Virus record (IMG/VR): IMGVR_UViG_3300044859_000145
Span: 1 to 20,522 of that record
Source: a virus
DNA: 20,522 bases
Strand: one strand, 5' to 3'
Each line of letters begins with the position of its first letter. The first letter of the stretch is position 1. The notes below the pieces were generated by a model. It was not told where the DNA came from and did no database searches. It saw only the letters and a list, made by a program, of their open reading frames with translations. Below, in pieces: positions 3,002 through 18,325 of the stretch. The position numbers and the translations under genes were made by a program.

Positions 3002-4006
3002 ATGGCATCATTAGCAGACATTCGTGCCCGTATCGCGGCACAAGACAATAAAACAAACAACAAGGGTTCACAAACCCAATCAGATAACTCTATCTACCCC
3101 CATTGGAACATTGACGAAGGCACGACGGCAACAGTTCGTTTCTTGCCTGACGCAAATAGTAGTAATACATTCTTCTGGGTAGAACGTCAACTAATTAAGT
3201 TGCCGTTCAATGGGGTCAAGGGTGATCCTAACATTAAACAAACAATCGTTCAAGTACCTTGTATTGAAATGTATGGTACAGGCGAGACTTGCCCTATCTT
3301 GGCAGAAGTTCGTCCTTGGTATAAAGACGAAACATTGAAAGAAATGGCAAACAAGTATTGGAAGAAACGTAGTTATATCTTTCAGGGTTTTGTACGTCAA
3401 AATCCACTAGGTGATGACAAAGTTCCTGCAAATCCAATTCGCAGATTTGTTATCAGTTCACAAATTTTCAACGTGATTAAATCTAGTTTGATGGATCCTG
3501 AAATGGAAGAATTGCCAACAGATTACTTGCACGGTGTTGACTTCAACATTAAGAAAACAAGTAAAGGTGGCTATGCTGATTACTCTACTAGTAATTGGGC
3601 ACGTAAAGAATCACCATTGAATGAGTCAGAACAAGCCGCTATTGAAGCACATGGTTTGTTTAACTTAACAGACTTCTTACCTAAGAAGCCTAATGAAGCA
3701 GAGTTACGCATCATTAAAGAAATGTTTGAAGCAAGTGTAGATGGTCAACCTTTTGATAATGAACGTTGGGGTAGTTACTATCGTCCTTGGGGACTAGAAG
3801 CACCTGCAGGAGCGACCGCGGATAAACAAACAGCTACTACTGAAACTAGAGCACCCGCAACAGCACCCGTAGCAGAGACTTCAGCACCTTGGGAAGATGA
3901 GCCTGCAACAACAACTGCACCAGTTAGTGTCCCGGCAGCTGGCACATCAAGTGACAAAGCACAAGACATTCTAGCAATGATTCGTGCTAGACAAAACAAG
4001 TCTTAA
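3002..4006 (+). CDS. 32: Single-stranded DNA-binding protein gp32
   Basis: T4 gp32 homologue of 334 aa (T4: about 300). It coats single-stranded DNA during replication, recombination and repair and works with UvsX and UvsY encoded just downstream. The N-terminus carries a basic, LAST-like segment (LADIRARIAAQ). The core (about 30-265) has aromatic- and basic-rich OB-fold features, including CPILAEVRPWYKDE at 97-110 and IRRFVISSQIF. T4 gp32 binds zinc with one His and three Cys; here only Cys87 and Cys97 lie in that region, with no CxxC, so the zinc site appears lost. Residues 265-315 are a Pro/Ala/Thr-rich linker with one acidic WEDE patch. The C-terminus ends in DILAMIRARQ, echoing the N-terminus, instead of a plain acidic tail. 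A good AAGGA site lies 9 nt upstream of the ATG. Confidence 0.93.
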   Translation: MASLADIRARIAAQDNKTNNKGSQTQSDNSIYPHWNIDEGTTATVRFLPDANSSNTFFWVERQLIKLPFNGVKGDPNIKQTIVQVPCIEMYGTGETCPILAEVRPWYKDETLKEMANKYWKKRSYIFQGFVRQNPLGDDKVPANPIRRFVISSQIFNVIKSSLMDPEMEELPTDYLHGVDFNIKKTSKGGYADYSTSNWARKESPLNESEQAAIEAHGLFNLTDFLPKKPNEAELRIIKEMFEASVDGQPFDNERWGSYYRPWGLEAPAGATADKQTATTETRAPATAPVAETSAPWEDEPATTTAPVSVPAAGTSSDKAQDILAMIRARQNKS

Positions 4007-4479: not shown

Positions 4480-5547
4480 ATGGCAAAACCTTTTGACGTA
4501 AGTAAATTCCGTAAGGACATTACAAAAAGTATCGAAGGTCTATCAATAGGATTTAACGATCCTACTGATTGGATCTCGACAGGAAATTATGCTCTCAACT
4601 ATCTCATTAGTGGTGACTTTAATAAAGGCGTACCTCTTGGTAAAGTTACTGTCTTTGCCGGAGAGTCAGGCGCCGGAAAATCGTTCATCTGCTCAGGAAA
4701 CCTCGTCAGACACGCACAACAACAAGGAATCTTTGTAGTCTTAGTTGATTCAGAGAATGCCCTTGACGAAGCTTGGTTACACGCACTTGGTGTATCTACA
4801 GAAGAAAATAAACTATTAAAACTAAACATGGCAATGATTGACGAAGTAGGAAAAACTATTTCTATGTTCGTTAAAGATTATAAAGCATTATCGGAAACAG
4901 ATCGTCCTAAGGTATTGTTTGTAGTTGACTCATTGGGTATGTTGTTAACACCAACTGATGTTAATCAGTTTGAAGCGGGTGATATGAAAGGTGACATGGG
5001 TCGTAAGCCCAAGGCATTGACAGCATTAGTTCGTAACTGTGTTAATATGTTTGGTTCACTTGGTATTGGTTTAGTAGCTACTAATCACACATATGCTTCA
5101 CAGGATATGTTTGATCCAGATGATAAAATCAGTGGTGGTCAAGGTTTCGTTTACGCATCAAGCATTGTTGTTGCTATGAAGAAACTGAAACTTAAAGAAG
5201 ATGAAGATGGTAATAAGATTAGTGATGTGCGAGGTATTCGTGCCGCTTGCAAAATTATGAAAACTCGTTATGCAAAACCATTTGAATCAGTACAAGTTAA
5301 AATTCCTTACGAAACAGGTATGAGTCCTTACTCAGGTCTATTAGATATGATTGAGAAGGCCGAACTTGTTAAGAAAGAAGGCAACAGTTTAGTTTATACA
5401 ACACTTGATGGCGAAATCATTAAGAAGTTTCGTAAAGCATGGGAAGCCAACGTTGATGGTTGTTTAGATAAAGTAATGTCCGAGTATAGTCAAAAATCAA
5501 CAACAAAGATAAGTACTGTAACACCTGAGGAGGAGGGTACAGAATGA
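4480..5547 (+). CDS. uvsX: UvsX, RecA-like recombinase
   Basis: A 355-aa strand-exchange protein of the RecA/UvsX family (T4 UvsX is about 390 aa). It forms filaments on single-stranded DNA and catalyses the homologous pairing that starts recombination-dependent replication. Visible features are Walker A GESGAGKS at 61-68, a hydrophobic strand ending LVDSENALDEAWL (88-100), Walker B LFVVD at 146-150, and the DNA-binding loop region with TNHTYASQDMFDPDDKISGG (201-220). The C-terminus is short and acidic (EEEGTE). The ATG abuts the preceding stop without a strong ribosome binding site, suggesting coupling. The end overlaps the next gene by ATGA. It neighbours gp32 upstream and uvsY downstream, its usual partners. 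Confidence 0.95.
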   Translation: MAKPFDVSKFRKDITKSIEGLSIGFNDPTDWISTGNYALNYLISGDFNKGVPLGKVTVFAGESGAGKSFICSGNLVRHAQQQGIFVVLVDSENALDEAWLHALGVSTEENKLLKLNMAMIDEVGKTISMFVKDYKALSETDRPKVLFVVDSLGMLLTPTDVNQFEAGDMKGDMGRKPKALTALVRNCVNMFGSLGIGLVATNHTYASQDMFDPDDKISGGQGFVYASSIVVAMKKLKLKEDEDGNKISDVRGIRAACKIMKTRYAKPFESVQVKIPYETGMSPYSGLLDMIEKAELVKKEGNSLVYTTLDGEIIKKFRKAWEANVDGCLDKVMSEYSQKSTTKISTVTPEEEGTE

Positions 5548-6290: not shown

Positions 6291-7316
6291 ATGGATCAAT
6301 ATCAATTAGTCTCACGTTGGATACAGGGCTTTATACCCGATAAAATACTGCCTTGGCAGATAGATTTAGACACAACTAACATCTGCAATCAAGCTTGCTA
6401 TTACTGTAACACCGAGCAATTTAGAACAGAATTGCCGGTGTACCAGCCTATAGAAATGTATAGTAAGTTAATAGATAGATTGCATAACTGGAGAAAACAT
6501 GATCCTAACGTTATCGGTACATTAAGTAATGTTATCTTTAGTGGTGGCGGTGAACCTACGTTGCTTCCAGGATATGAAGATTTATTGGAAGATGTGATTG
6601 ATAAAGGTTACGTAGCAGCCATGAACACAAATGGTACTAAGTTACATAAGATATTAACAATAAGTGATGATAAGTTAAAACGTATGGCTTATTTAGGATT
6701 AGATATTGATAGCGGTAATCCAGACACATATGAGTTGATACGCAAAAGTAAAATGTCAACTAGCCCTTTTGATAGAGTTAAAGAAACTGCAAAAGAGTTA
6801 GGTTCTAGAGGCATTCCATTAGATATCAAAGCTTTACTAATGCCAGAGAACACAAGTCAAATAGAAATCAATAGTATATTTGAATATGCAAGAGATGTTA
6901 AAGCTAGGTCGGTACACTTAAGACCAGTCGTGTTGAATGGTAACAGTTTCATTATGAACAGTGAAGTTGCCGCAAGAATAAAAACTGCAAGTGAATTTTA
7001 TGGAGTAAAGTCAGATATATCCTTAGGTAGATACGACGAACGACAATACAAACGTTGTCATCAGATGTTTTTATTCCCTAGTTTCTGTGCTGATGGAAAC
7101 ATTTATCTTTGTTGTGAGTACAAAGGCCGTGAAGATACTAAACTAGGCTCGTGGATCGATGATGACTTTAGAGATATATGGTGTAGTGATAAGCATAAAG
7201 AAATTTATAATAACTTCCTTACATCATTCTGCAAACCATGCAGACCGAATAACACAAATAATCAGATACAAATGGCCATGAATGATTATAGTAGAGTGAT
7301 TAAATCATTTATCTAA
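6291..7316 (+). CDS. Radical SAM protein with SPASM-like C-terminal cysteines
   Basis: A 341-aa protein. The CNQACYYC motif (Cys32, Cys36, Cys39) is the CxxxCxxC site for the 4Fe-4S cluster that cleaves S-adenosylmethionine. SGGGEPT (84-90) is the usual SAM-contacting GGEP motif. The rest of the barrel follows (GLDIDSGNPDTYELIR). The C-terminal part has Cys256, Cys266, Cys274, Cys275, Cys298, Cys314 and Cys317 in an arrangement resembling a SPASM/twitch auxiliary-cluster domain, including CADGNIYLCCEYKG and LGSW(x)7IW. Such enzymes modify peptides, sugars or nucleotide-linked substrates; the substrate here cannot be read. The gene converges on the leftward glycosyltransferase-like pair, overlapping tail to tail by 8 bp. 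The start at 6291 is favoured because the iron-sulfur motif needs the N-terminal strand. Confidence 0.88.
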   Translation: MDQYQLVSRWIQGFIPDKILPWQIDLDTTNICNQACYYCNTEQFRTELPVYQPIEMYSKLIDRLHNWRKHDPNVIGTLSNVIFSGGGEPTLLPGYEDLLEDVIDKGYVAAMNTNGTKLHKILTISDDKLKRMAYLGLDIDSGNPDTYELIRKSKMSTSPFDRVKETAKELGSRGIPLDIKALLMPENTSQIEINSIFEYARDVKARSVHLRPVVLNGNSFIMNSEVAARIKTASEFYGVKSDISLGRYDERQYKRCHQMFLFPSFCADGNIYLCCEYKGREDTKLGSWIDDDFRDIWCSDKHKEIYNNFLTSFCKPCRPNNTNNQIQMAMNDYSRVIKSFI

Positions 7317-8631
7317 GATGCCAGTCTCTAAAGGTTTCCCAAAAGTCATTTCTTTTGCGTTCGGTATATATTGACTTTAATAAGTTGTAGTTATGTTTGG
7401 TTATACACATTGACTCATAGAAAAAATCTTTCTTTTTACTAGTTGACCAGTTACTTATATTTTTGCATAATGACGCAATACGCATTAATCTGATAGTATC
7501 TTTGGTTTCTAAATCATAAGCCTCATCCCAAAAATCACTGAATGTTTTGTATCCCAAAGACTTCAAGTTTTCTAATGACCCGGTAGGCCCTACTATTATA
7601 AAAGGGTGTTTATTGGCTATTGGCTTCCATGTTTTCTCAGAATGATATATTTGATTACTAACAAAGTTTGATTCAGTAACTACACTAATCAATGTACTAT
7701 CATAAACTGAATATGATTGATTGATGATTTTTTCCATATTAGGAACGTTTGTAATCCCGTCAATATTTAAAGGAAATAAAGCTTGTAAATCATCGGTCTT
7801 ATTTACATCTACTAGATTTAATATTATTTGCCTACGTTTAGCGTCAATCGCATCTAACTCAGGAACTCCTAAACGATATAATGTTTTCCATAATACACCT
7901 GAATCTACACAATGTTCTGGCATACTAAAATAACTGTCAGCTAGAACATCAAACTTATAAAATAATGCTAATAAATCGCTACGATGTGGTTTAGTTTTTC
8001 TGTTATAACATAGAAAAGTTTTACTTCTTTTGTAAAAATTTAGATTTTCAGTGGCTATATAGTTTTGTATTTCTTTGCTAGCGTTTATTTCTCCCCATTG
8101 GTAACTAAAAATAGTTGCTTTATCTATAGGTAAAATCCCTTTATTTTCACACCATTTATTATATTCTTCCTTTACATTAGCATGACCTAATAATAAAATA
8201 GCTTTGTTTATTGGTACTTTATGGGTTATAAAAAGAATGTGAACATTATCAAAAAACGCATCCAAGTTGATTGAATCTTGGCAGGCTTCTAATAAAAAAT
8301 AACCATTATTATTTTTAATCATTTTAAGTATGTTATCTGGTATGTTACATTGCTTTTCAAACAAATCAAATGAATAATTATTTAACCATGATCCTTCACT
8401 TATATTAAGTGTAAGTTCATATAGAAAATAATCATCTTGGTTTAAAGTGTGTGAAATCACATATTCATATCCAGTATTGTCTTTAAACAAATGTAATGTC
8501 CTACTAGGGCATATATCAACGTTATCTTTATCTTTAGCTAATGTTAATGCTGATTTTAAATCTATTTGGTTATTGCTTAAAGGATAATGAGGCCCATACC
8601 AATCATATACTAACTTTATTTTATCTGTCAT
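7309..8631 (-). CDS. Glycosyltransferase-like hypothetical, paralogue 1
   Basis: A 440-aa protein and clear paralogue of the next leftward-coded gene. Shared blocks are KTFLCYNRKTKPHRSDL (204-220), SYFSMPEHC (233-241), SVVTESNF (316-323), SEKTWKPIANKHPFIIVGP (331-349) and LKSLGYKTFSDFWDEAYD (356-373). The block with E332/K333 followed by a hydrophobic strand and GP resembles the donor-binding part of GT10 fucosyltransferase-like enzymes (a TEKxxxA...P pattern). It also resembles hypothetical proteins common in environmental T4-like phages. The glycosyltransferase reading is inference. The start overlaps the upstream gene's stop by ATGA, so the two form an operon. Base composition is very AT-rich. 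The neighbouring radical SAM enzyme suggests a glycan or virion-modification role. Confidence 0.8.
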   Translation of the reverse strand: MTDKIKLVYDWYGPHYPLSNNQIDLKSALTLAKDKDNVDICPSRTLHLFKDNTGYEYVISHTLNQDDYFLYELTLNISEGSWLNNYSFDLFEKQCNIPDNILKMIKNNNGYFLLEACQDSINLDAFFDNVHILFITHKVPINKAILLLGHANVKEEYNKWCENKGILPIDKATIFSYQWGEINASKEIQNYIATENLNFYKRSKTFLCYNRKTKPHRSDLLALFYKFDVLADSYFSMPEHCVDSGVLWKTLYRLGVPELDAIDAKRRQIILNLVDVNKTDDLQALFPLNIDGITNVPNMEKIINQSYSVYDSTLISVVTESNFVSNQIYHSEKTWKPIANKHPFIIVGPTGSLENLKSLGYKTFSDFWDEAYDLETKDTIRLMRIASLCKNISNWSTSKKKDFFYESMCITKHNYNLLKSIYTERKRNDFWETFRDWHLR

Positions 8632-9962
8632 TTTACTAATCCTGTTTCAATCATAAACTTATCCCAAAACTTTAATCTACGATTATCGGGATATATTGAT
8701 TTAAGTAAGTTAAAGTTATGTTCAGTTATATCTTTAACTCCATAAAAGAAATCTTTTTTCTTTTGAGTTGGCCATTCATTTATCTCTTTGCATAACTTAC
8801 CTATTTTTAATAAACGTTGTCCATGTTTAGGTTCATCGTCATAACTCTCATCAAAGAAATCACTAAATGTTTTATATCCTAATGATTTTAAATATTCTAG
8901 TGATTTATATGGTCCTATTAATATAAAGGGATGATAGTTGGCAATAGGTTTCCATGTTTTCTCAGTAAAGAAAACATCCATATATACAAAGTTTGTTTCC
9001 GTAACCACACTTATTAATGACTGATGAAATAAGTTTGGTTCTGGGGCAATCAGTTTGATCCTATCCCATTCATTAATGGTGTTATCTATTACTAATGGTA
9101 ATATACTATTTAAATGTTTTATATCTTTATCTGTTATATTCAGTTCATCTTTAATGTCATTACGATAAGATGTTGCATGTTTTTCTGAGTGATAAAAACT
9201 TTCCCAATCACCTCCCCAATGGTCACATTTTTCAAACATACTAAAATAGCTATGTTTAAGTAAATCATATTTATAAAATATAGTATAAAGGTCTGCTCTC
9301 CAATGTCTATATTTGTTATTATAACATAAAAAGGATTTTTCTACCCTATTAAAATCTTTTTCTTTCGGTAATAATCCTTCAAGTTCCTGTAACTGAATAC
9401 TTGATAACCATTCAAACCAGTCGAATGTAACTATATTCATTCTTTCTGCTATATTTTTTCTGTTACAATATTTTCTATATACATCTGCCCCATTTATACT
9501 ACCAGTATAATATATTACTTTGTTTAATGGTATTTCATGCTTATTAAAATGTAAATGAAACATATCTAGTTCCATATCTCCTAAATATGATTCTGTCATA
9601 TATTCAATTAATAAATAACCATTATTATATTTTATATCATGTTCTATTTTTTCTGGTAAATCTATATTACTCAACATGTATTCTAATAATTCAACCCCAT
9701 ATATATTACGATCACCGGACATTTCTGCCCTTAATGTTATTTCATATAAAAATATATCATCATCTTTTAACATAAAACTAGGAATAAACTCAAAAAGATG
9801 ATTATCTAATACTCTCATAGTTTGCATTGGATTACACAATGCCCACATTTTTCTAGGATTATGTCCATAATGTTCATATGCTATATCCATTGAAGAAAGA
9901 TTATTTATTATGGGATATTCTCTATTGAAATAGTCGTATGCTATTTTTATTTTTTTGCTCAT
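8628..9962 (-). CDS. Glycosyltransferase-like hypothetical, paralogue 2
   Basis: A 444-aa protein sharing with the preceding entry an N-terminal KIKxxYD start, an FLYE(I/L)TL strand, KSFLCYNNKYRHWRADL (209-225), SYFSMFEKC, SVVTETNF (318-325), TEKTWKPIANYHPFILIGP (333-351) and LKSLGYKTFSDFFDESYD (358-375). The two arose by duplication but have diverged widely outside these blocks. Function is unknown; a GT10-like glycosyltransferase is the best structural guess. GC content is strikingly low (about 15-30% in the lines I counted), below the rest of the window, suggesting recent acquisition. A late-type octamer lies 5 nt before the ATG and there is no Shine-Dalgarno sequence. Confidence 0.8.
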   Translation of the reverse strand: MSKKIKIAYDYFNREYPIINNLSSMDIAYEHYGHNPRKMWALCNPMQTMRVLDNHLFEFIPSFMLKDDDIFLYEITLRAEMSGDRNIYGVELLEYMLSNIDLPEKIEHDIKYNNGYLLIEYMTESYLGDMELDMFHLHFNKHEIPLNKVIYYTGSINGADVYRKYCNRKNIAERMNIVTFDWFEWLSSIQLQELEGLLPKEKDFNRVEKSFLCYNNKYRHWRADLYTIFYKYDLLKHSYFSMFEKCDHWGGDWESFYHSEKHATSYRNDIKDELNITDKDIKHLNSILPLVIDNTINEWDRIKLIAPEPNLFHQSLISVVTETNFVYMDVFFTEKTWKPIANYHPFILIGPYKSLEYLKSLGYKTFSDFFDESYDDEPKHGQRLLKIGKLCKEINEWPTQKKKDFFYGVKDITEHNFNLLKSIYPDNRRLKFWDKFMIETGLVK

Positions 9963-9989: not shown

Positions 9990-10018
9990 TTGACAATAAT
10001 TGGGTCCTGTGATACAAT
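9990..10018 (+). promoter_or_regulatory. Sigma70-type promoter, copy 1
   Basis: TTGACA (9990-9995), 17 bp, TACAAT (10013-10018), with an extended TGA just before the -10. It drives the small gene at 10052. A near-identical copy lies exactly 450 bp downstream (41 of 46 bases from 9990 to 10035 match 10440-10485). Confidence 0.8.
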
Positions 10019-10028
10019 ACTTGTATTG
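10015..10028. promoter_or_regulatory. Palindromic operator candidate, copy 1
   Basis: CAATAC-TT-GTATTG is a perfect 14-bp palindrome that overlaps the end of the -10 box and the expected start point (about 10025). That position fits a repressor or activator site better than an mRNA hairpin. The identical palindrome recurs at 10465-10478. Confidence 0.55.
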
Positions 10029-10051
10029 AAACTGATAAAGAGGACTACGAA

Positions 10052-10429
10052 ATGACTACAGAATTCAAATCTTGGGAAGAGTTGACACAGTTGGAACAGG
10101 CCCAATCTATATATTGGGATATGTACAAGGACGCTTACGGTGTTCGCCCTCGCGGTGTTGACACCTCACACTGGACCCTTGAGGATTTTGATGCTGAGTT
10201 TGAAGGACTCGGTGTAGCTATTGAAGCCGAAGATAAGGCCCGCAAAGAGGCCGAAGCTACTGCAACTGTTGTTTTTGAGCAACGGATTCAGTCATTAGTT
10301 GATGCTGGTGCTAAGGACCGTGTTACTGCTATGCGTTGGATCCACGAAGCTGAGGACACTAACGGCGATGATGAGTATTTGGCTTGGACACTTAGCTTAC
10401 CCTATGGGTATTTTCGTAAGGTAGCTTAA
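10052..10429 (+). CDS. Small hypothetical with WDMYKDAYGVRPRG motif
   Basis: A 125-aa protein. The N-terminal segment IYWDMYKDAYGVRPRGVDT (20-38) recalls a motif (YKDAYGxRPR) in small proteins of many tailed phages of proteobacteria, as far as I recall; no function is known to me. A long Ala/Glu/Lys helix (55-90) follows, then an RVTAMRWIHEAEDT stretch and a C-terminal SLPYGYFRKVA. An AGAGGA site lies 7 nt before the ATG. GC content is about 45-53% in the lines counted, well above its flanks, so the gene probably entered from another genome. It sits between two copies of the same promoter, as if inserted together with a promoter copy ahead of the AAA+ gene. Confidence 0.82.
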   Translation: MTTEFKSWEELTQLEQAQSIYWDMYKDAYGVRPRGVDTSHWTLEDFDAEFEGLGVAIEAEDKARKEAEATATVVFEQRIQSLVDAGAKDRVTAMRWIHEAEDTNGDDEYLAWTLSLPYGYFRKVA

Positions 10430-10439
10430 GGCACAAAAT

Positions 10440-10468
10440 TTGACAATAAATGGACCCTATGATACAAT
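10440..10468 (+). promoter_or_regulatory. Sigma70-type promoter, copy 2
   Basis: TTGACA (10440-10445), 17 bp, TACAAT (10463-10468), with extended TGA. It drives the AAA+ ATPase at 10500, whose ribosome binding site AAGGA is at 10490-10494. The expected start is near 10475, giving a leader of about 25 nt. Confidence 0.8.
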
Positions 10469-10478
10469 ACTTGTATTG
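10465..10478. promoter_or_regulatory. Palindromic operator candidate, copy 2
   Basis: The same CAATAC-TT-GTATTG palindrome as at 10015-10028, at the same place relative to the -10 box. Exact conservation of the palindrome, while five nearby bases differ between promoter copies, supports selection on it. Confidence 0.55.
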
Positions 10479-10499
10479 ACACTGAAATAAAGGAAACAA

Positions 10500-11528
10500 A
10501 TGTCTACTATTCGCATTCTCTCTGGCTCTTATCGTAAACAATCTGTAGTCAATACAGAATTTACTTTAGTTAAAGGTTTTCAGACCGGTGCTAAAGGTGG
10601 TTATGTGACTGTTAAAAATGATGGTCAATTCGCAATCAACATACCTGAAGTCAAGGTACTTGTTGATAGTATCAATGAAATTGAATTTTTAAATGGAGAT
10701 AACGTGATAGCTAATACAGTAGAATTTAAAAAAGAATCAGTTAAAGAAACTGAAACAGAAGCAATGGACCGTATTGCGGCTCGTTTCGAGGTCCTCGATG
10801 AAATGTCACGTGCGGCAATCAATGGTGATATCCGTGCTATGATTGTTTCAGGCCCGCCCGGTGTCGGTAAGTCATATGGTGTTGAGACACAAATGGAACG
10901 TGCAAGTATGTTTGACAAGCTTGCAGGTAAGCGTGTGCGCTTTAACATTGTTAAAGGTGCTATGACTGCATTGGGTTTGTATGCTCAGTTGTACAAATAT
11001 TCTGACACTAAAAACGTGTTGATTTTCGATGATTGTGATTCAGTTTTTACTGATGACTTAGCATTGAACATTTTGAAGGCCGCATTAGATTCAGGCAAGA
11101 CTCGTAGAATTTGCTGGAACAGTGATAGTCGTTTGTTGCGTGAAGAAGGTATCCCGAATACTTTCAACTTCAATGGTAGTGCTATCTTTATCACTAACTT
11201 GAAGTTCGGTAACTTGAAGTCTAAGAAACTTCAGGATCACTTAGAAGCATTGCAGTCACGTTGTCACTTTCTGGACCTGACTATTGATGGTGATCGTGAT
11301 AAGATGTTGCGTATCAAGCAGGTGCATCGTGATGCTGATGGTGGTTTGTTTAGTGATTATGATTTCACAGAAGAACAATCACAAATGGTGATTGACTTTA
11401 TGTGGGACAATCATACAAAACTGCGTGAAGTGTCTTTACGTATGTGCTTGAAGATTGCTGACTTAGTGAAGATTAGCCCGAACAACTGGAAAAATCTTGC
11501 ACGTACAACGTGTATGAAATCTGCATAA
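10500..11528 (+). CDS. Phage AAA+ ATPase of unknown role
   Basis: A 342-aa protein. Residues 1-75 form a small N-terminal domain, residues 76-105 a helical linker, and the rest an AAA+ core: Walker A GPPGVGKS (118-125), Walker B VLIFDDCD (173-180), a sensor-1-like strand AIFITNLKFGN, an Arg in QSRCHFLDL, and a C-terminal helical lid. It is not the T4 clamp-loader subunit gp44: the N-terminal domain and spacing differ and the acidic box is DDCD. ATPases of this kind are common in environmental phages and are often annotated only as AAA family; roles in DNA transactions or protein remodelling are plausible. It is expressed from its own early-type promoter and closed by a hairpin at 11573-11594. 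Confidence 0.87.
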   Translation: MSTIRILSGSYRKQSVVNTEFTLVKGFQTGAKGGYVTVKNDGQFAINIPEVKVLVDSINEIEFLNGDNVIANTVEFKKESVKETETEAMDRIAARFEVLDEMSRAAINGDIRAMIVSGPPGVGKSYGVETQMERASMFDKLAGKRVRFNIVKGAMTALGLYAQLYKYSDTKNVLIFDDCDSVFTDDLALNILKAALDSGKTRRICWNSDSRLLREEGIPNTFNFNGSAIFITNLKFGNLKSKKLQDHLEALQSRCHFLDLTIDGDRDKMLRIKQVHRDADGGLFSDYDFTEEQSQMVIDFMWDNHTKLREVSLRMCLKIADLVKISPNNWKNLARTTCMKSA

Positions 11529-11638: not shown

Positions 11639-12664
11639 ATGGATTTTAAGACACTTGAAGACTTGGGCACCTTTATGCTTATCAATATACGATTGAGCAG
11701 GTATGACCTACAGTTTGTAAATAACTTAACTAATTTTATTGGTATAAAAAATACAATCACTACCAATCAGGATAGTCTCTTTAAAAAAATTGCACTAAAA
11801 TATCGTAAACAGTTCGCACAACAAAAGTTTGATATTGATAGTTTATTAACATTACCTTGGAAATGCAACGTAATAGAAAGCTCACCTCAATATACAAATG
11901 CATCCATTGCTATTGTAAAAGACACTATAGTTTTTAGATCGCCCTTTAAACAAAGCTTTTTGGCCGCATTAAAAAAGAATCCAATACATTCAATGGAATG
12001 GCATAAGGATAAAAGACAATATGAAATTGAGTATGGTCCCACAACATTAAAAATGTTGATTACATTAAGTGCCGACCACTTTGAAGTTATAGACTATTGT
12101 CCAATTACAAAAGATATTATCAATAGTCTTAGCGAATATGAATCAGTTAAATATTGGGAGCCGACACTTGTTTGCAACAACGGTTATTTCTATATAGCCG
12201 CACTCAATGAAGCATTGTATGACATTATCAACGATATTCCACTAACCAATGATTTAGTAATGGTAGCAGATTATGTACAGTATGGTATTACTGTAAGTGA
12301 GTCTGTTATAAAGCATTTTATTAATATAGAAGATCCAATGAAATTAGCTATTGCGGTTAGTTATAGGGTTGAATGTGAAATACGTGATATAGATTCTGTT
12401 ATCAAATGGTTAAGCGAGTTGGGTTGTGACGGATTAACTGAGCCATCAAAGGTATCTTCAAAACAATTATTTTTCCTAAATGAGTCAGCAGAAAAATTAT
12501 TGAATAATTTGAATATGGATATAATAAGAAACCAATCTAACTTGAAATCATACGAGAAACCTGTTATAATTCAATATAGAACATATGGATTCAATGAACA
12601 TCCTTCTGTATTCAAAATTATAAAATGTGTTAACTCAGAACCTGTCAACTTGGGAGATAAATGA
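11639..12664 (+). CDS. Unknown protein encoded just upstream of uvsW
   Basis: A 341-aa protein that I do not recognise. It has mixed alpha/beta character and no nucleotide-binding loop. One segment (FLAALKKNPIHSMEWHKDKR, then QYEIEYGP) is faintly like the HARP-type motif found beside SNF2-like helicases, where a hydrophobic stretch is followed by a small RxWD-like turn. That similarity is weak and untested. A second pattern is YWEPTLVCNNGYFYIAALNE (about 172-191). The stop overlaps the uvsW start by ATGA, so the two are coupled. A free-standing substrate-recognition or partner protein for UvsW is a reasonable inference from position. The ATG at 11639 lies too close to the -10 box for any leader. 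Confidence 0.78.
   Translation: MDFKTLEDLGTFMLINIRLSRYDLQFVNNLTNFIGIKNTITTNQDSLFKKIALKYRKQFAQQKFDIDSLLTLPWKCNVIESSPQYTNASIAIVKDTIVFRSPFKQSFLAALKKNPIHSMEWHKDKRQYEIEYGPTTLKMLITLSADHFEVIDYCPITKDIINSLSEYESVKYWEPTLVCNNGYFYIAALNEALYDIINDIPLTNDLVMVADYVQYGITVSESVIKHFINIEDPMKLAIAVSYRVECEIRDIDSVIKWLSELGCDGLTEPSKVSSKQLFFLNESAEKLLNNLNMDIIRNQSNLKSYEKPVIIQYRTYGFNEHPSVFKIIKCVNSEPVNLGDK
12542..12570 (+). promoter_or_regulatory. Likely internal promoter for uvsW
   Basis: TTGAAA (12542-12547, 5 of 6), 17 bp, TATAAT (12565-12570), with extended TGT. It lies within the end of the preceding gene, about 90 bp before the uvsW ATG. A start near 12577 would give a leader of about 84 nt. It could uncouple UvsW from its upstream neighbour. 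Confidence 0.5.
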
Positions 12665-15225: not shown

Positions 15226-15907
15226 TAAGACAATCAAGTATGGTTGTGATTTTTGCAATAGAGAGTTCCTACGTGAATCTACTATGGCTAAACACCTGTG
15301 TGAGAACAAACAACGTTGGATGAACAAAGATATGCAAGGTAATCGTATTGGCTTTCAGTCTTGGTTGCAATTTTATAAAAAGAATACTTCAACTAAAAAG
15401 AATAAAACATACGAGGAGTTCATTCGTAGTGCTTACTATACTGCATTTGTAAAGTTTGGAACACATTGTGCAAATATCAATGCAATCAATATTAGTAGAT
15501 ATGTAGATTGGTTATTAAAAAACAATATCAAAATTGATACTTGGGCCAGTGATAGTGTCTATACAAAATATTTAATTGAGTATTTGCGTATTGAAGATCC
15601 GTTAGATGCTATTGCACGTAGTGTCCAAACTACTATGGATTTAGCAGAGAAAGAGGGCATTGTACCTAAAGACTATTTGTGTTATGGTAACCCCAATAAG
15701 ATATGTCATAGTATTACCAATGGTAAGATTAGTCCTTGGATGTTATATCAAAGTGATAGTGGTGTAAAGTTCTTAGATAGTTTGAATGAATCACAGGTAA
15801 AGATGGTTATTGACTATATCAATCCAGAGTTATGGAAGATTAAGTTTAATCGTGAGCCAGAAAATGTTAAACAAGTTAAGGAATTATTGAATGCAGGCGG
15901 GTACTAG
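15185..15907 (+). CDS. C2HC zinc-finger-like protein overlapping gp62
   Basis: A 240-aa protein. The N-terminus carries Cys21, Cys24, His37 and Cys39 (CDFCNREF, then MAKHLC), a CxxC...HxC zinc-finger pattern suited to nucleic-acid binding. The remainder (60-240) is helical with several Trp residues and blocks such as KFGTHCANINAINISRYVDW and VKMVIDYINPELW. I do not recognise a named family. The ATG at 15185 is the only one upstream of the finger, which forces a 41-bp overlap with gp62 in another frame. A later Met (residue 34) would destroy the finger. No strong ribosome binding site is visible, so translation may depend on ribosomes finishing gp62. A role with the replisome is inferred from position. 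Confidence 0.8.
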   Translation: MKISLNTKKTEATDKTIKYGCDFCNREFLRESTMAKHLCENKQRWMNKDMQGNRIGFQSWLQFYKKNTSTKKNKTYEEFIRSAYYTAFVKFGTHCANINAINISRYVDWLLKNNIKIDTWASDSVYTKYLIEYLRIEDPLDAIARSVQTTMDLAEKEGIVPKDYLCYGNPNKICHSITNGKISPWMLYQSDSGVKFLDSLNESQVKMVIDYINPELWKIKFNREPENVKQVKELLNAGGY

Positions 15908-16085
15908 AGTTCGTATATCATGGGCAAAGGGAAATATCATAGATTGGAATGAAACCTGTGCTTGGGCAATAGAACAATTTGGCTTACCGGGCGATAAGTT
16001 TGAGGCACATGCAACCGAAGATTATATGGATTTCTATTTCAAGGATGAGCGTGATGCCATACTATTTGAGTTAGCACGGGGTTAA
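15891..16085 (+). CDS. Small protein A of the tandem F-x-LRW family
   Basis: A 64-aa protein starting inside the end of the zinc-finger gene (17-bp overlap). Its C-terminal half shows the family pattern: helix ending in CAWAIEQFGLPGD, a turn with HATEDYMDFYF, then KDERDAILFELARG-stop. The next genes in the array share the order helix with (W/L)xxE, aromatic-alternating strand FxF, charged turn with Asp, FxL plus a basic or aromatic end. Function is unknown. Members of this kind seem to be scattered in environmental T4-like phages, as far as I recall, always as hypothetical proteins. Confidence 0.72.
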   Translation: MQAGTRVRISWAKGNIIDWNETCAWAIEQFGLPGDKFEAHATEDYMDFYFKDERDAILFELARG

Positions 16086-16086
16086 A

Positions 16087-16305
16087 GTGCGACAAGTAAC
16101 ATTATACATTGATATTGATAGAACCTTAGAAATAGTTAGAGAGTTAAAAAAACACGGTTGGGTAATGGGTAAAGATTTTGATTTTGCTTATCATAAAACA
16201 AACTATGACAACTTTAGTGGATCCAATTGGGAACTAGAGAAGCATACTGTGTTCACTTTTTACAATGATAGCAATGCTAGTTATTTTATGTTGAGGTGGG
16301 GATGA
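16087..16305 (+). CDS. Small protein B of the tandem F-x-LRW family
   Basis: A 72-aa protein starting with GTG at 16087, 1 bp after the previous stop. A GGGG run from the previous gene's last codons lies just upstream as a possible ribosome binding site. Pattern: LYIDIDRTLEIVRELKKHGW (6-25), a central DFDFAYHK segment, then TVFTFYNDSNASYFMLRWG at the C-terminus (54-72). It is the clearest carrier of the terminal FxLRW motif. The codons for RW (agg tgg) plus the next base read as a Shine-Dalgarno-like element for the following gene. Function is unknown. Confidence 0.72.
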   Translation: MRQVTLYIDIDRTLEIVRELKKHGWVMGKDFDFAYHKTNYDNFSGSNWELEKHTVFTFYNDSNASYFMLRWG

Positions 16306-16628
16306 ATATATCAGAAGAAATTGTTAATCAAGTAGCCGATCAAATGGCTAAAGATATTGACACACTAGTGTTAATGTCTGCATTAGGATGGAATTCTTTC
16401 TACTTTAGCGAAGGTACAGTTTATGAACAAGAGTATTTGACTGCACAACCTGCACAACCACTCAGTGGTGCTAAATGGAAAGAAATGGAAGCATGGATGA
16501 TTGAAACATTTGGACCTACAGCACACGACGGAGTATGGACACCTAATATGCGATGGTATATGAACAATTCTAAATTTTGGTTTCGTGACAAAAAAGATTT
16601 AGAATGGTTTATACTTAGATGGCAATGA
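16302..16628 (+). CDS. Small protein C of the tandem F-x-LRW family
   Basis: A 108-aa protein. The ATG at 16302 overlaps the preceding stop (ATGA) and is preceded by GAGGTGGGG; a GTG at 16296 is possible but adds only two residues. The N-terminal 60 residues (MNISEEIVNQVADQMAKDID and a Trp/Phe/Tyr-rich stretch) look like an added domain absent from other members. The C-terminal part follows the family: WKEMEAWMIETFGP, then SKFWFRDKKDLEWFILRWQ. The IETFG here parallels IEQFG in member A, supporting common descent. Confidence 0.75.
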   Translation: MNISEEIVNQVADQMAKDIDTLVLMSALGWNSFYFSEGTVYEQEYLTAQPAQPLSGAKWKEMEAWMIETFGPTAHDGVWTPNMRWYMNNSKFWFRDKKDLEWFILRWQ

Positions 16629-16861
16629 TATATGAACATTATGACTATGATGCTGGATGGGAAAATACTAAACCCGGTTGGTATGAATGTACAGTACGTG
16701 CTAAACATCTTGCCAAATATAATGAAATAATTAAATGGTTAGAAACTAATATTGGCAAACACGAACGACATTGTAGATGGTGCGTAACTGATGATGACAT
16801 AGTTAGTTTCAAGTTTAGATATGAAAGAGATTACATTATGTTTACGTTGAGGTGGAGTTAA
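16625..16861 (+). CDS. Small protein D of the tandem F-x-LRW family
   Basis: A 78-aa protein. The ATG at 16625 overlaps the previous stop (ATGA); an in-frame ATG two codons upstream (16619) is the alternative. It has WYECTVRAKHLAKYNEIIKW (19-38), LETNIGKHERHCRWC with two Cys, and the family end VSFKFRYERDYIMFTLRWS. In this member the strand begins FKFRYERD, close to FYFKDERD of A and FWFRDKKD of C. Function is unknown. Confidence 0.73.
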   Translation: MIYEHYDYDAGWENTKPGWYECTVRAKHLAKYNEIIKWLETNIGKHERHCRWCVTDDDIVSFKFRYERDYIMFTLRWS

Positions 16862-17127
16862 TGGCAACTATACCTCACATACAAGATTATGATGACGATG
16901 ATCCAGAAATAGATAAACGAAAAAATCGTTGGAACTATTGGGAAGCATTAAAGAAAGTACGTAAAGAATATATGGCACAGAATAAAGAATTTGACGCATA
17001 TGATTTTGAAGACTACCTAGTAGGCCAATATGGCCTAAGGATGAATATAGTTGGAGGTAACATAACTGATGGTTATGAGATTGTTGACGAGAAGAAGTAC
17101 CTAATATTTTTATTAAAATTCCAATGA
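16861..17127 (+). CDS. Small protein E of the tandem F-x-LRW family (divergent)
   Basis: An 88-aa protein. The ATG at 16861 shares its A with the preceding TAA, after AGGTGGAG encoded by the LRW tail of the previous gene. An N-terminal acidic run (DYDDDDPEID) is followed by a basic helical segment and DYLVGQYGLRMNIVGG. The end, EIVDEKKYLIFLLKFQ, is a degraded version of the family tail, with K-F for R-W. A GC-rich inverted repeat lies at 17016-17040, inside the coding region. Confidence 0.72.
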   Translation: MATIPHIQDYDDDDPEIDKRKNRWNYWEALKKVRKEYMAQNKEFDAYDFEDYLVGQYGLRMNIVGGNITDGYEIVDEKKYLIFLLKFQ

Positions 17128-17477
17128 ACACTACTCCCTTTCCCATAACATCTTTACAAAAAGGTAAATTTCTAGTATCATGGCCTAAGTGGGGTAACAT
17201 TCAAACGTTTGATATTAAGAAAAAACTATTGGATGTACTATTTGAAGATATCGGTAGTGATGAAGTTGGTATTGGAATAACTCCCGGATATCTTAGCGAA
17301 ATGGATATTATGTGGATAACATTGACTACTTGGGCGCAAGATATCAATGGTGATTACGCTAGATACCTAGAAGATATGTATGAGATTAAAGGTGTGGCAT
17401 TCAATAGTGAAAATGAAGCCTTAAAGCTACAAGATTACTTAGAGAAGAAATATATTTGGAAAACATTACAATTATGA
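17124..17477 (+). CDS. Small protein F, last small gene of the array
   Basis: A 117-aa protein that starts inside the previous stop (ATGA). It shows only a partial family signature: GVAFNSENEALKLQDYLEKK (93-112) mirrors the strand-turn-helix of the others, but the protein runs on for several residues and ends TLQL rather than LRW. The N-terminal part has a SWPKWGNIQTFDIKKKLLDV stretch. It may be a distant relative or an unrelated gene in the same run. The stop overlaps the ROK kinase start by ATGA. Confidence 0.72.
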   Translation: MNTTPFPITSLQKGKFLVSWPKWGNIQTFDIKKKLLDVLFEDIGSDEVGIGITPGYLSEMDIMWITLTTWAQDINGDYARYLEDMYEIKGVAFNSENEALKLQDYLEKKYIWKTLQL

Positions 17478-18325
17478 ATAAGATTGGTGTTGATATCGGT
17501 AAAACAAAAATTGAGTGCTGTGTATTATCACCCACTAATGATATATTATTTAGAGAGCGTCTACCCACAGATTCCGTATACAAAGAAATAGAATTTCTCT
17601 ATAATAAAGCATTATCCTATACTAGTACAAAAGAACATACATTAGGAATATGTATGCCGGGTTCTATAAGTTATAGAACTGGTTTACTGAAAAATTCCAG
17701 CATAGAATTTTTAAATGATACAGATTTTGTAGGCATATTAGAAACTAAATTAAATCGTAAGATACAAACTGCAAATGATAGTCAATGTTTTGCTTTAGCA
17801 GAAGCCTTATTGGGAGCAGGTAATGGCTATAATACTGTATTTGGAATGATATTGGGTACAGGCGTAGGGGGCGGAATTGTAATTAACAGTTCATTACATA
17901 AAGGATTTCATAACATAAGTGCTGAATGGGGACATACAACACTAGATACAAGTAATAATATAATGTGTCGATGCGGTAGAATCGGATGTGTAGAAACTTG
18001 GTTAAGCGGCTCGGGGATAGACAAATGGGCATTTAATGTTACGAATAAAAAATTATCCACAAAAGAATATTTACAAATTTTGGAGATACAAGAATCTTTC
18101 TTAGAACAGTTTGGATTAGCTATTGCTAATTTAGTTCAAGTGTTAGACCCAGATTGTATTGTAATTGGTGGTGGATTAAGCAATAATGATATCTTATACA
18201 CCCGAGGTATTGAACGTGTGAAAAAGATTATATTCAATGATGAATTTAGTACACCTATCTTTAAAGCAAAATTAGGTGACAGTGCAGGTGTAATAGGAGC
18301 GGCATTATTATGGCAAATGATATAA
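17474..18325 (+). CDS. ROK-family sugar kinase
   Basis: A 283-aa protein of the ROK family (bacterial glucokinases, N-acetylglucosamine and N-acetylmannosamine kinases, about 300 aa). The ATG at 17474 overlaps the previous stop; upstream extension adds only six residues. Motifs: phosphate loop DIGKTK (7-12), ICMPG (59-63), catalytic Asp102 in TANDSQ, LGTGVGGGIV (127-136), sugar-binding EWGH (151-154), and the zinc site of His154 plus CRCGRIGC (Cys165, Cys167, Cys172). IGGGL (231-235) completes the ATP site. All key residues are present, so it should be active. The substrate is not decidable; an N-acetyl hexosamine or glucose is most likely from family knowledge. A sugar kinase in a phage replication operon is unusual. 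The 3' end overlaps the exonuclease gene by 16 bp. Confidence 0.88.
   Translation: MNKIGVDIGKTKIECCVLSPTNDILFRERLPTDSVYKEIEFLYNKALSYTSTKEHTLGICMPGSISYRTGLLKNSSIEFLNDTDFVGILETKLNRKIQTANDSQCFALAEALLGAGNGYNTVFGMILGTGVGGGIVINSSLHKGFHNISAEWGHTTLDTSNNIMCRCGRIGCVETWLSGSGIDKWAFNVTNKKLSTKEYLQILEIQESFLEQFGLAIANLVQVLDPDCIVIGGGLSNNDILYTRGIERVKKIIFNDEFSTPIFKAKLGDSAGVIGAALLWQMI

Follow-up and report, generated by a model that had tools for sequence, protein, structure and literature searches.

The two near-identical promoters that lie 450 bp apart in the window, a 20.5-kb virus record analysed over its full 20,522 nucleotides, probably belong (we put this at about 0.75) to a predicted genome-wide family of host-sigma-70 early promoters in a clade of large T4-like freshwater phages, a family that appears to be modular and to have its cores swapped. 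Judged from sequence, each promoter would join a -35 module, TTGACAATAAAT(GG), through a free spacer to one of several -10/start modules. Most likely these promoters engage host RNA polymerase as soon as the DNA has been injected, each driving one small gene or a short operon within an early slot that is hypervariable, both the promoter activity and the early timing being predictions.

Two class A promoters on either side of a small gene

The features on which the argument rests are the following:

9990..10044, plus strand: class A promoter, copy 1, with TTGACA at 9990-9995, a 17-nt spacer with TG, TACAAT at 10013-10018, a predicted start at about 10025 (from the distance to the -10 box) and Shine-Dalgarno GAGGA at 10040-10044
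10004..10039, plus strand: 36-bp core of copy 1 (spacer, -10, start region and leader), of class A in the window but of class B in close relatives
10015..10028: dyad CAATAC-TT-GTATTG of copy 1, over the -10 box and start site
10052..10429, plus strand: 125-aa gene, function not assigned (phrog_21968), 47% GC, with homologs among Sinorhizobium, Agrobacterium and Mesorhizobium phages
10440..10494, plus strand: class A promoter, copy 2, with TTGACA at 10440-10445, TACAAT at 10463-10468, a predicted start at about 10475 and AGGA at 10491-10494
10465..10478: dyad CAATAC-TT-GTATTG of copy 2, kept before AAA-gene orthologs
10500..11528, plus strand: gene of a 342-aa AAA-type ATPase (phrog_1250, Walker A GPPGVGKS)

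A repeat search found no direct repeat in the window longer than the one formed by the two copies (55 nt, 9990-10044 versus 10440-10494, 47/55 or 85% identical, 450 apart), and the match is far from chance. An earlier note on this DNA had counted 41 of 46 matching bases 450 bp apart, which we confirmed (5 of 46 differ between 9990-10035 and 10440-10485), and had reported the same palindrome in both copies; CAATACTTGTATTG indeed has two occurrences in the window and no others, at 10015-10028 and 10465-10478, with 6-bp arms and a TT centre. Both copies are 11/12 matches to a sigma-70 promoter with a 17-nt spacer and an extended -10 TG, and the pattern TTGACA-N15..19-TANAAT was observed 3 times in the window where 0.42 were expected. 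The 125-aa gene and the leaders account for the 450-bp distance, which recurs in relatives, even in one (G002) whose first promoter is of another class. T4-like replication genes are present on both sides, with a gp32-like gene at 3002, UvsX at 4480 and a UvsW-like helicase at 12661.

A promoter family with two start modules

The earlier note had tied its proposal to further copies of the palindrome and to conservation in relatives, and both were found. In a scan of viral contigs, the 19-mer GATACAATACTTGTATTGA matched at least 119 contig stretches, where we estimate that random sequence would give about one or fewer, and individual contigs of relatives have as many as about 40 promoters that carry the -35 module. 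The palindrome itself is conserved and repeated in relatives, with up to 7 close start-block matches on each of the large related contigs.

Anchoring on the -35 module and -10 box alone yielded 423 distinct promoters, with a spacer of 17 nt in 420 of them, and their start regions fall mainly into two classes, ACTTGTATTGA/ACATGTATTGA (class A) and AGA[A/G]TCTTA (class B). The class A start module, TAYAATAC[T/A]TGTATTGA, contains the palindrome, with the dyad at about -10 to +4, and the class B module reads TATAATAGANTCTTA..CAGT. Loci retrieved only through their proteins show both classes as well, which means that retrieval with the motif did not create them. Class A, whose counts are inflated because many loci were fetched with the motif itself, stands before genes of about 51 families, among them the AAA gene, the 125-aa gene and a gene that reads as rIIA-like from its sequence. 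The two classes can share a genome, as in G005, with 9 class A and 11 class B promoters.

When conservation was computed with weighting by gene family (51 families for class A), it extended in class A promoters over both the -10 box and the dyad as far as +5, one base beyond the palindrome, with 1.5 bits at +5 and 0.2 at +6 in a logo that is partly circular because the right arm was used to define the class. The two centre bases of the dyad are less conserved than its arms. Defining class A by the left AC alone gave GTATTG in 137 of 201 promoters, defining it by the right TATTG alone gave AC[TA]TG in 134 of 144, and the same block emerged either way. Conservation in class B reaches farther than in class A, to about +9, and this class has preferred spacer bases and a start region that has no dyad. 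We counted the dyad AATACNNGTATT 27 times in 1.35 Mb made up of the window and seven contigs. Class A promoters account for 22 of these, and the remaining five are close to the number (about five) that base composition predicts, an expectation computed by hand.

Two further observations concern the same modules. An 11.5-kb viral contig (L079) carries eight class A-like promoters on one strand among small ORFs, forming a dense cassette array. Many class B start modules, for example in L157 and G006, carry GANTC (AGAATC, AGAGTC) directly after the -10 box; GANTC is the CcrM methylation site of alphaproteobacteria and might matter if the hosts belong to that group.

Exchange of the core before the 125-aa gene

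Orthologs of the 125-aa gene are preceded by class A or by class B promoters, which have locus-specific leaders and share the -35 module and the Shine-Dalgarno region. On a tree of this gene (42 sequences) the promoter switches class at least 8 times, and well-supported branches require 4-5 of these switches. Between L199 (class A) and L157 (class B), identity is 96% in the upstream 200 nt, 59% in the core, 86% in the gene and 96% in the downstream 400 nt, and the corresponding values between the window and L124 are 90%, 50%, 94% and 98%. As compared here, near relatives differ mainly in the 36-bp core while the gene stays. This comparison shows that the start module of a gene is changed by exchange of a core of about 36 bp, and recombination through the shared -35 module and Shine-Dalgarno region on either side of it may be what replaces the core. 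The class A and class B start modules would most plausibly set different strength or timing. Before the AAA gene, the promoter is class A in 39 of 54 cases and the class is stable in most relatives. Toggling of one gene between promoter types, with nearly identical flanks, makes regulatory rewiring visible at single-promoter resolution in uncultured phages.

A variable slot and the age of its promoters

Relatives have one to seven such promoters in the slot that separates the UvsX-82aa-153aa block from the AAA gene, mostly with a small ORF behind each and in steps of about 250-450 bp. In G001 the slot contains the 125-aa gene and a second small gene under a class A promoter of its own, in G006 seven class B promoters stand in a row, and the slots of G005, G006, G010 and G011 lack the 125-aa gene.

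From the two copies and the GC content of the gene between them, the earlier note had concluded that the small gene arrived or moved as a promoter-gene cassette. The cassette part stands, in that the slot holds varying units of a promoter and a small ORF, but a recent arrival or duplication of such a cassette in the window phage is highly improbable. The 85% likeness of the copies would fit it, as would a gene GC unlike that of the AT-rich genes on the left; as description the GC contrast is correct, with 47% in the gene, 39% in the right gene and 28% in the two left genes. Against this, the gene sits in the same place and at the same spacing in several relatives, and all orthologs have 43-50% GC, so that a high GC typical of the whole family is no sign of recent arrival. 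Leaders are shared by orthologous promoters across phages (AAACTGATAAAGAGGAC before the 125-aa gene and, in the near clade, ACACTGAAATAAAGGA before the AAA gene) and are more alike than those of the two window copies, indicating that the copies are old and separate. What changes before the 125-aa gene is the core and not the gene, and on synteny, GC and leader comparison we rejected a recent event.

The block at 6291-9962, rather than the 125-aa gene to its right, looks like a foreign, inserted stretch. It holds a radical SAM/SPASM gene at 6291 and, next to it, two AT-rich paralogs (7309-9962, minus strand, adjoining each other, 40% identical, 28% GC) for which no PHROG or Pfam match was found. 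The block is absent from most compared relatives, and G005 has a homolog of the paralogs in the same slot.

The class A core outside the clade

Salmonella phage Munch and Klebsiella phage fENko-Kae01 have the core TATAATACTTGTATTGAAAC in front of genes, at two places in the early region of each, its repetition in fENko-Kae01 arising because the sites lie in the terminal repeat. In these jumbo phages TATAATACTTGTATTGA stands with an unrelated -35, spacer and leader, and nearly the same holds in Vibrio phage K567. Yersinia and Vibrio D419-type phages have close variants that lack the complete dyad, and the core is also found in further unrelated viral contigs with other leaders. Cellular genomes totalling 257 Gb gave four occurrences of the full pattern, and a single contig rich in phage-type genes held two of these; the class A core is essentially a phage element. 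Its recurrence outside the clade may reflect either convergence or spread. The 17-mer TATAATACTTGTATTGA was not found in the literature searched, and many BLAST matches to Vibrio and Klebsiella phages were set aside as weak single-promoter resemblances. Culturable phages such as Munch and fENko-Kae01 offer the same core.

Other phages have inverted repeats at the -10 box as well. In Agrobacterium phage Atu_ph07 (L273), an 8-bp inverted repeat flanks the -10 box in each of thirteen promoters that resemble TTGACATTATTTTTCGATGGTGTATAACTACATCATCGAAA and are nearly identical to one another, and one of the thirteen precedes the homolog of the 125-aa gene. We considered these repeats and those around the -10 box in Sinorhizobium phage phiM12, before the homologous gene, as possible parallels, which did not prove a dyad rule; in Atu_ph07 the right arm is constant and the left varies. 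Another phage promoter family, CTAGTATAATACTAGTATTGTTATAACTTTTGGA (L289, L353, L358, L366 and L372), has the dyad CTAGTAT-A-ATACTAG centred on the -10 box.

What the palindrome may do

The earlier note had supposed that a regulator shared by both genes reads the palindrome, which is possible. The dyad may be the binding site of a dimeric regulator or a start sequence tuned for the polymerase; we regard these as about equally likely, and each only tentatively.

As an operator, the dyad would let a phage- or host-encoded dimeric repressor (or activator) bound over the -10/start region switch all class A genes together. This agrees with an inverted repeat that is conserved over the core region of several promoters, with a conserved block that ends at the dyad edge, with centre bases looser than the arms and with the confinement of the dyad to -10 sites. 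Class A is moreover a defined subset of promoters within a genome, as in G005, and class A-like promoters form arrays in the 11.5-kb contig. Lambda-type repressor operators are likewise short dyads over a core promoter, repeated at several promoters. An operator fits less well with a dyad half of which is the -10 box itself, and with the same core in unrelated phages of different hosts. Covariation between paired arm positions is weak or absent: replacements of the outer C-G pair by T-A are few, an outer-left T with unchanged right G is common, and the enrichment of C-G at the inner pair in unrelated phages (56/128) is not convincing once obvious families are collapsed by hand. In a comparison of contig fragments and ORFs of at least 50 aa, 17 gene families are co-distributed with class A (present in at least three class A contigs and lacking in the class-A-free sister contig G006); no DNA-binding-like regulator was found among them, and in this respect the class A promoters differ from lambda-type operators with their repressor gene.

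If the start module is instead tuned for RNA polymerase, as in other very strong phage promoters, through discriminator, open-complex and initial-transcribed contacts, the palindrome would be a by-product of the -10 box and favoured start bases. The lack of a DNA-binding gene among the 17 families and the overlap of the -10 box with half of the dyad agree with this reading, and the recurrence of TATAATACTTGTATTGA in Munch, fENko-Kae01 and nearly in K567 amid unrelated promoter parts, like the near-variants lacking the full dyad in Yersinia and Vibrio D419-type phages, points the same way. The predicted start is well placed, since a +1 A preceded by T and 7 nt from the -10 box is an ideal start, and class B has a conserved start region too, without a dyad. 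Tuning leaves unexplained why two start modules coexist and are exchanged, and why conservation stops at the dyad edge.

A bolder form of the operator reading, in which a novel early-gene regulator (made by the phage, or a host factor that is broadly conserved) serves several unrelated lytic lineages and genes are re-wired by exchange of the 36-bp core alone, seems to us unlikely. Action of the conserved stretch in RNA, through leader structure or stability, is very improbable and we rejected an RNA hairpin: leaders are conserved per gene, but the left arm, being upstream of the predicted start, would be absent from the transcript, the leaders fold no better than shuffles, and class A genes have no common leader sequence beyond +5.

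Relation to known systems

The closest known system is the PeSL (promoter early stem-loop), a mobile regulatory cassette of T4-type phages (Arbiol et al. 2010; Comeau et al. 2014; both cited in PMC4503421). As described in PMC4503421, PeSLs are almost identical early promoters scattered among the small genes of a hypervariable region and tied to modular exchange in T4-like phages. The promoters described here behave like such cassettes: they are, by sequence, putatively strong early sigma-70-type promoters, they are dispersed in many copies per genome at gene boundaries, and they accompany gene shuffling between related phages, seen in the variable promoter-ORF slot and in core exchange. They differ in having a dyad on the -10/start site, in that no stem-loop/terminator partner was found, and in that the gene stays fixed while its promoter core is exchanged. 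Because the stem-loop was not found, we do not assign them to PeSL as known from PMC4503421 and the titles it cites. No terminator-like site was found between 10410 and 10440, the one candidate (10398-10410) lies inside the 125-aa gene, and the promoter flanks fold no better than shuffles.

The early promoters of phage T5 are strong and have a conserved start region after TATAAT, with a sequence that differs from the one here and no dyad. The T4 early promoter consensus also differs from the promoters here. T4 early promoters share with them great strength with host sigma-70 and extra conserved positions beyond -35 and -10, and the available part of the T4 review describes for them neither a dyad class nor two exchangeable start modules (PMC2988021). 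According to the same review, early shut-off must rely on as yet unknown strategies, and the class A dyad offers a short, concrete DNA element for the question of how early transcription is timed or shut off in large lytic phages.

Other genes of the window

Within the T4-like replication region, a ROK-family sugar kinase gene (17456-18325; PF00480, E 2.6e-61) is shared, among the compared relatives, with G001 only. At 15891-17477, about six short overlapping genes without a family match stand in a row with similar endings (..DEKDYIxFxLRW); they are possibly weak tandem paralogs, and their number and order differ among relatives.
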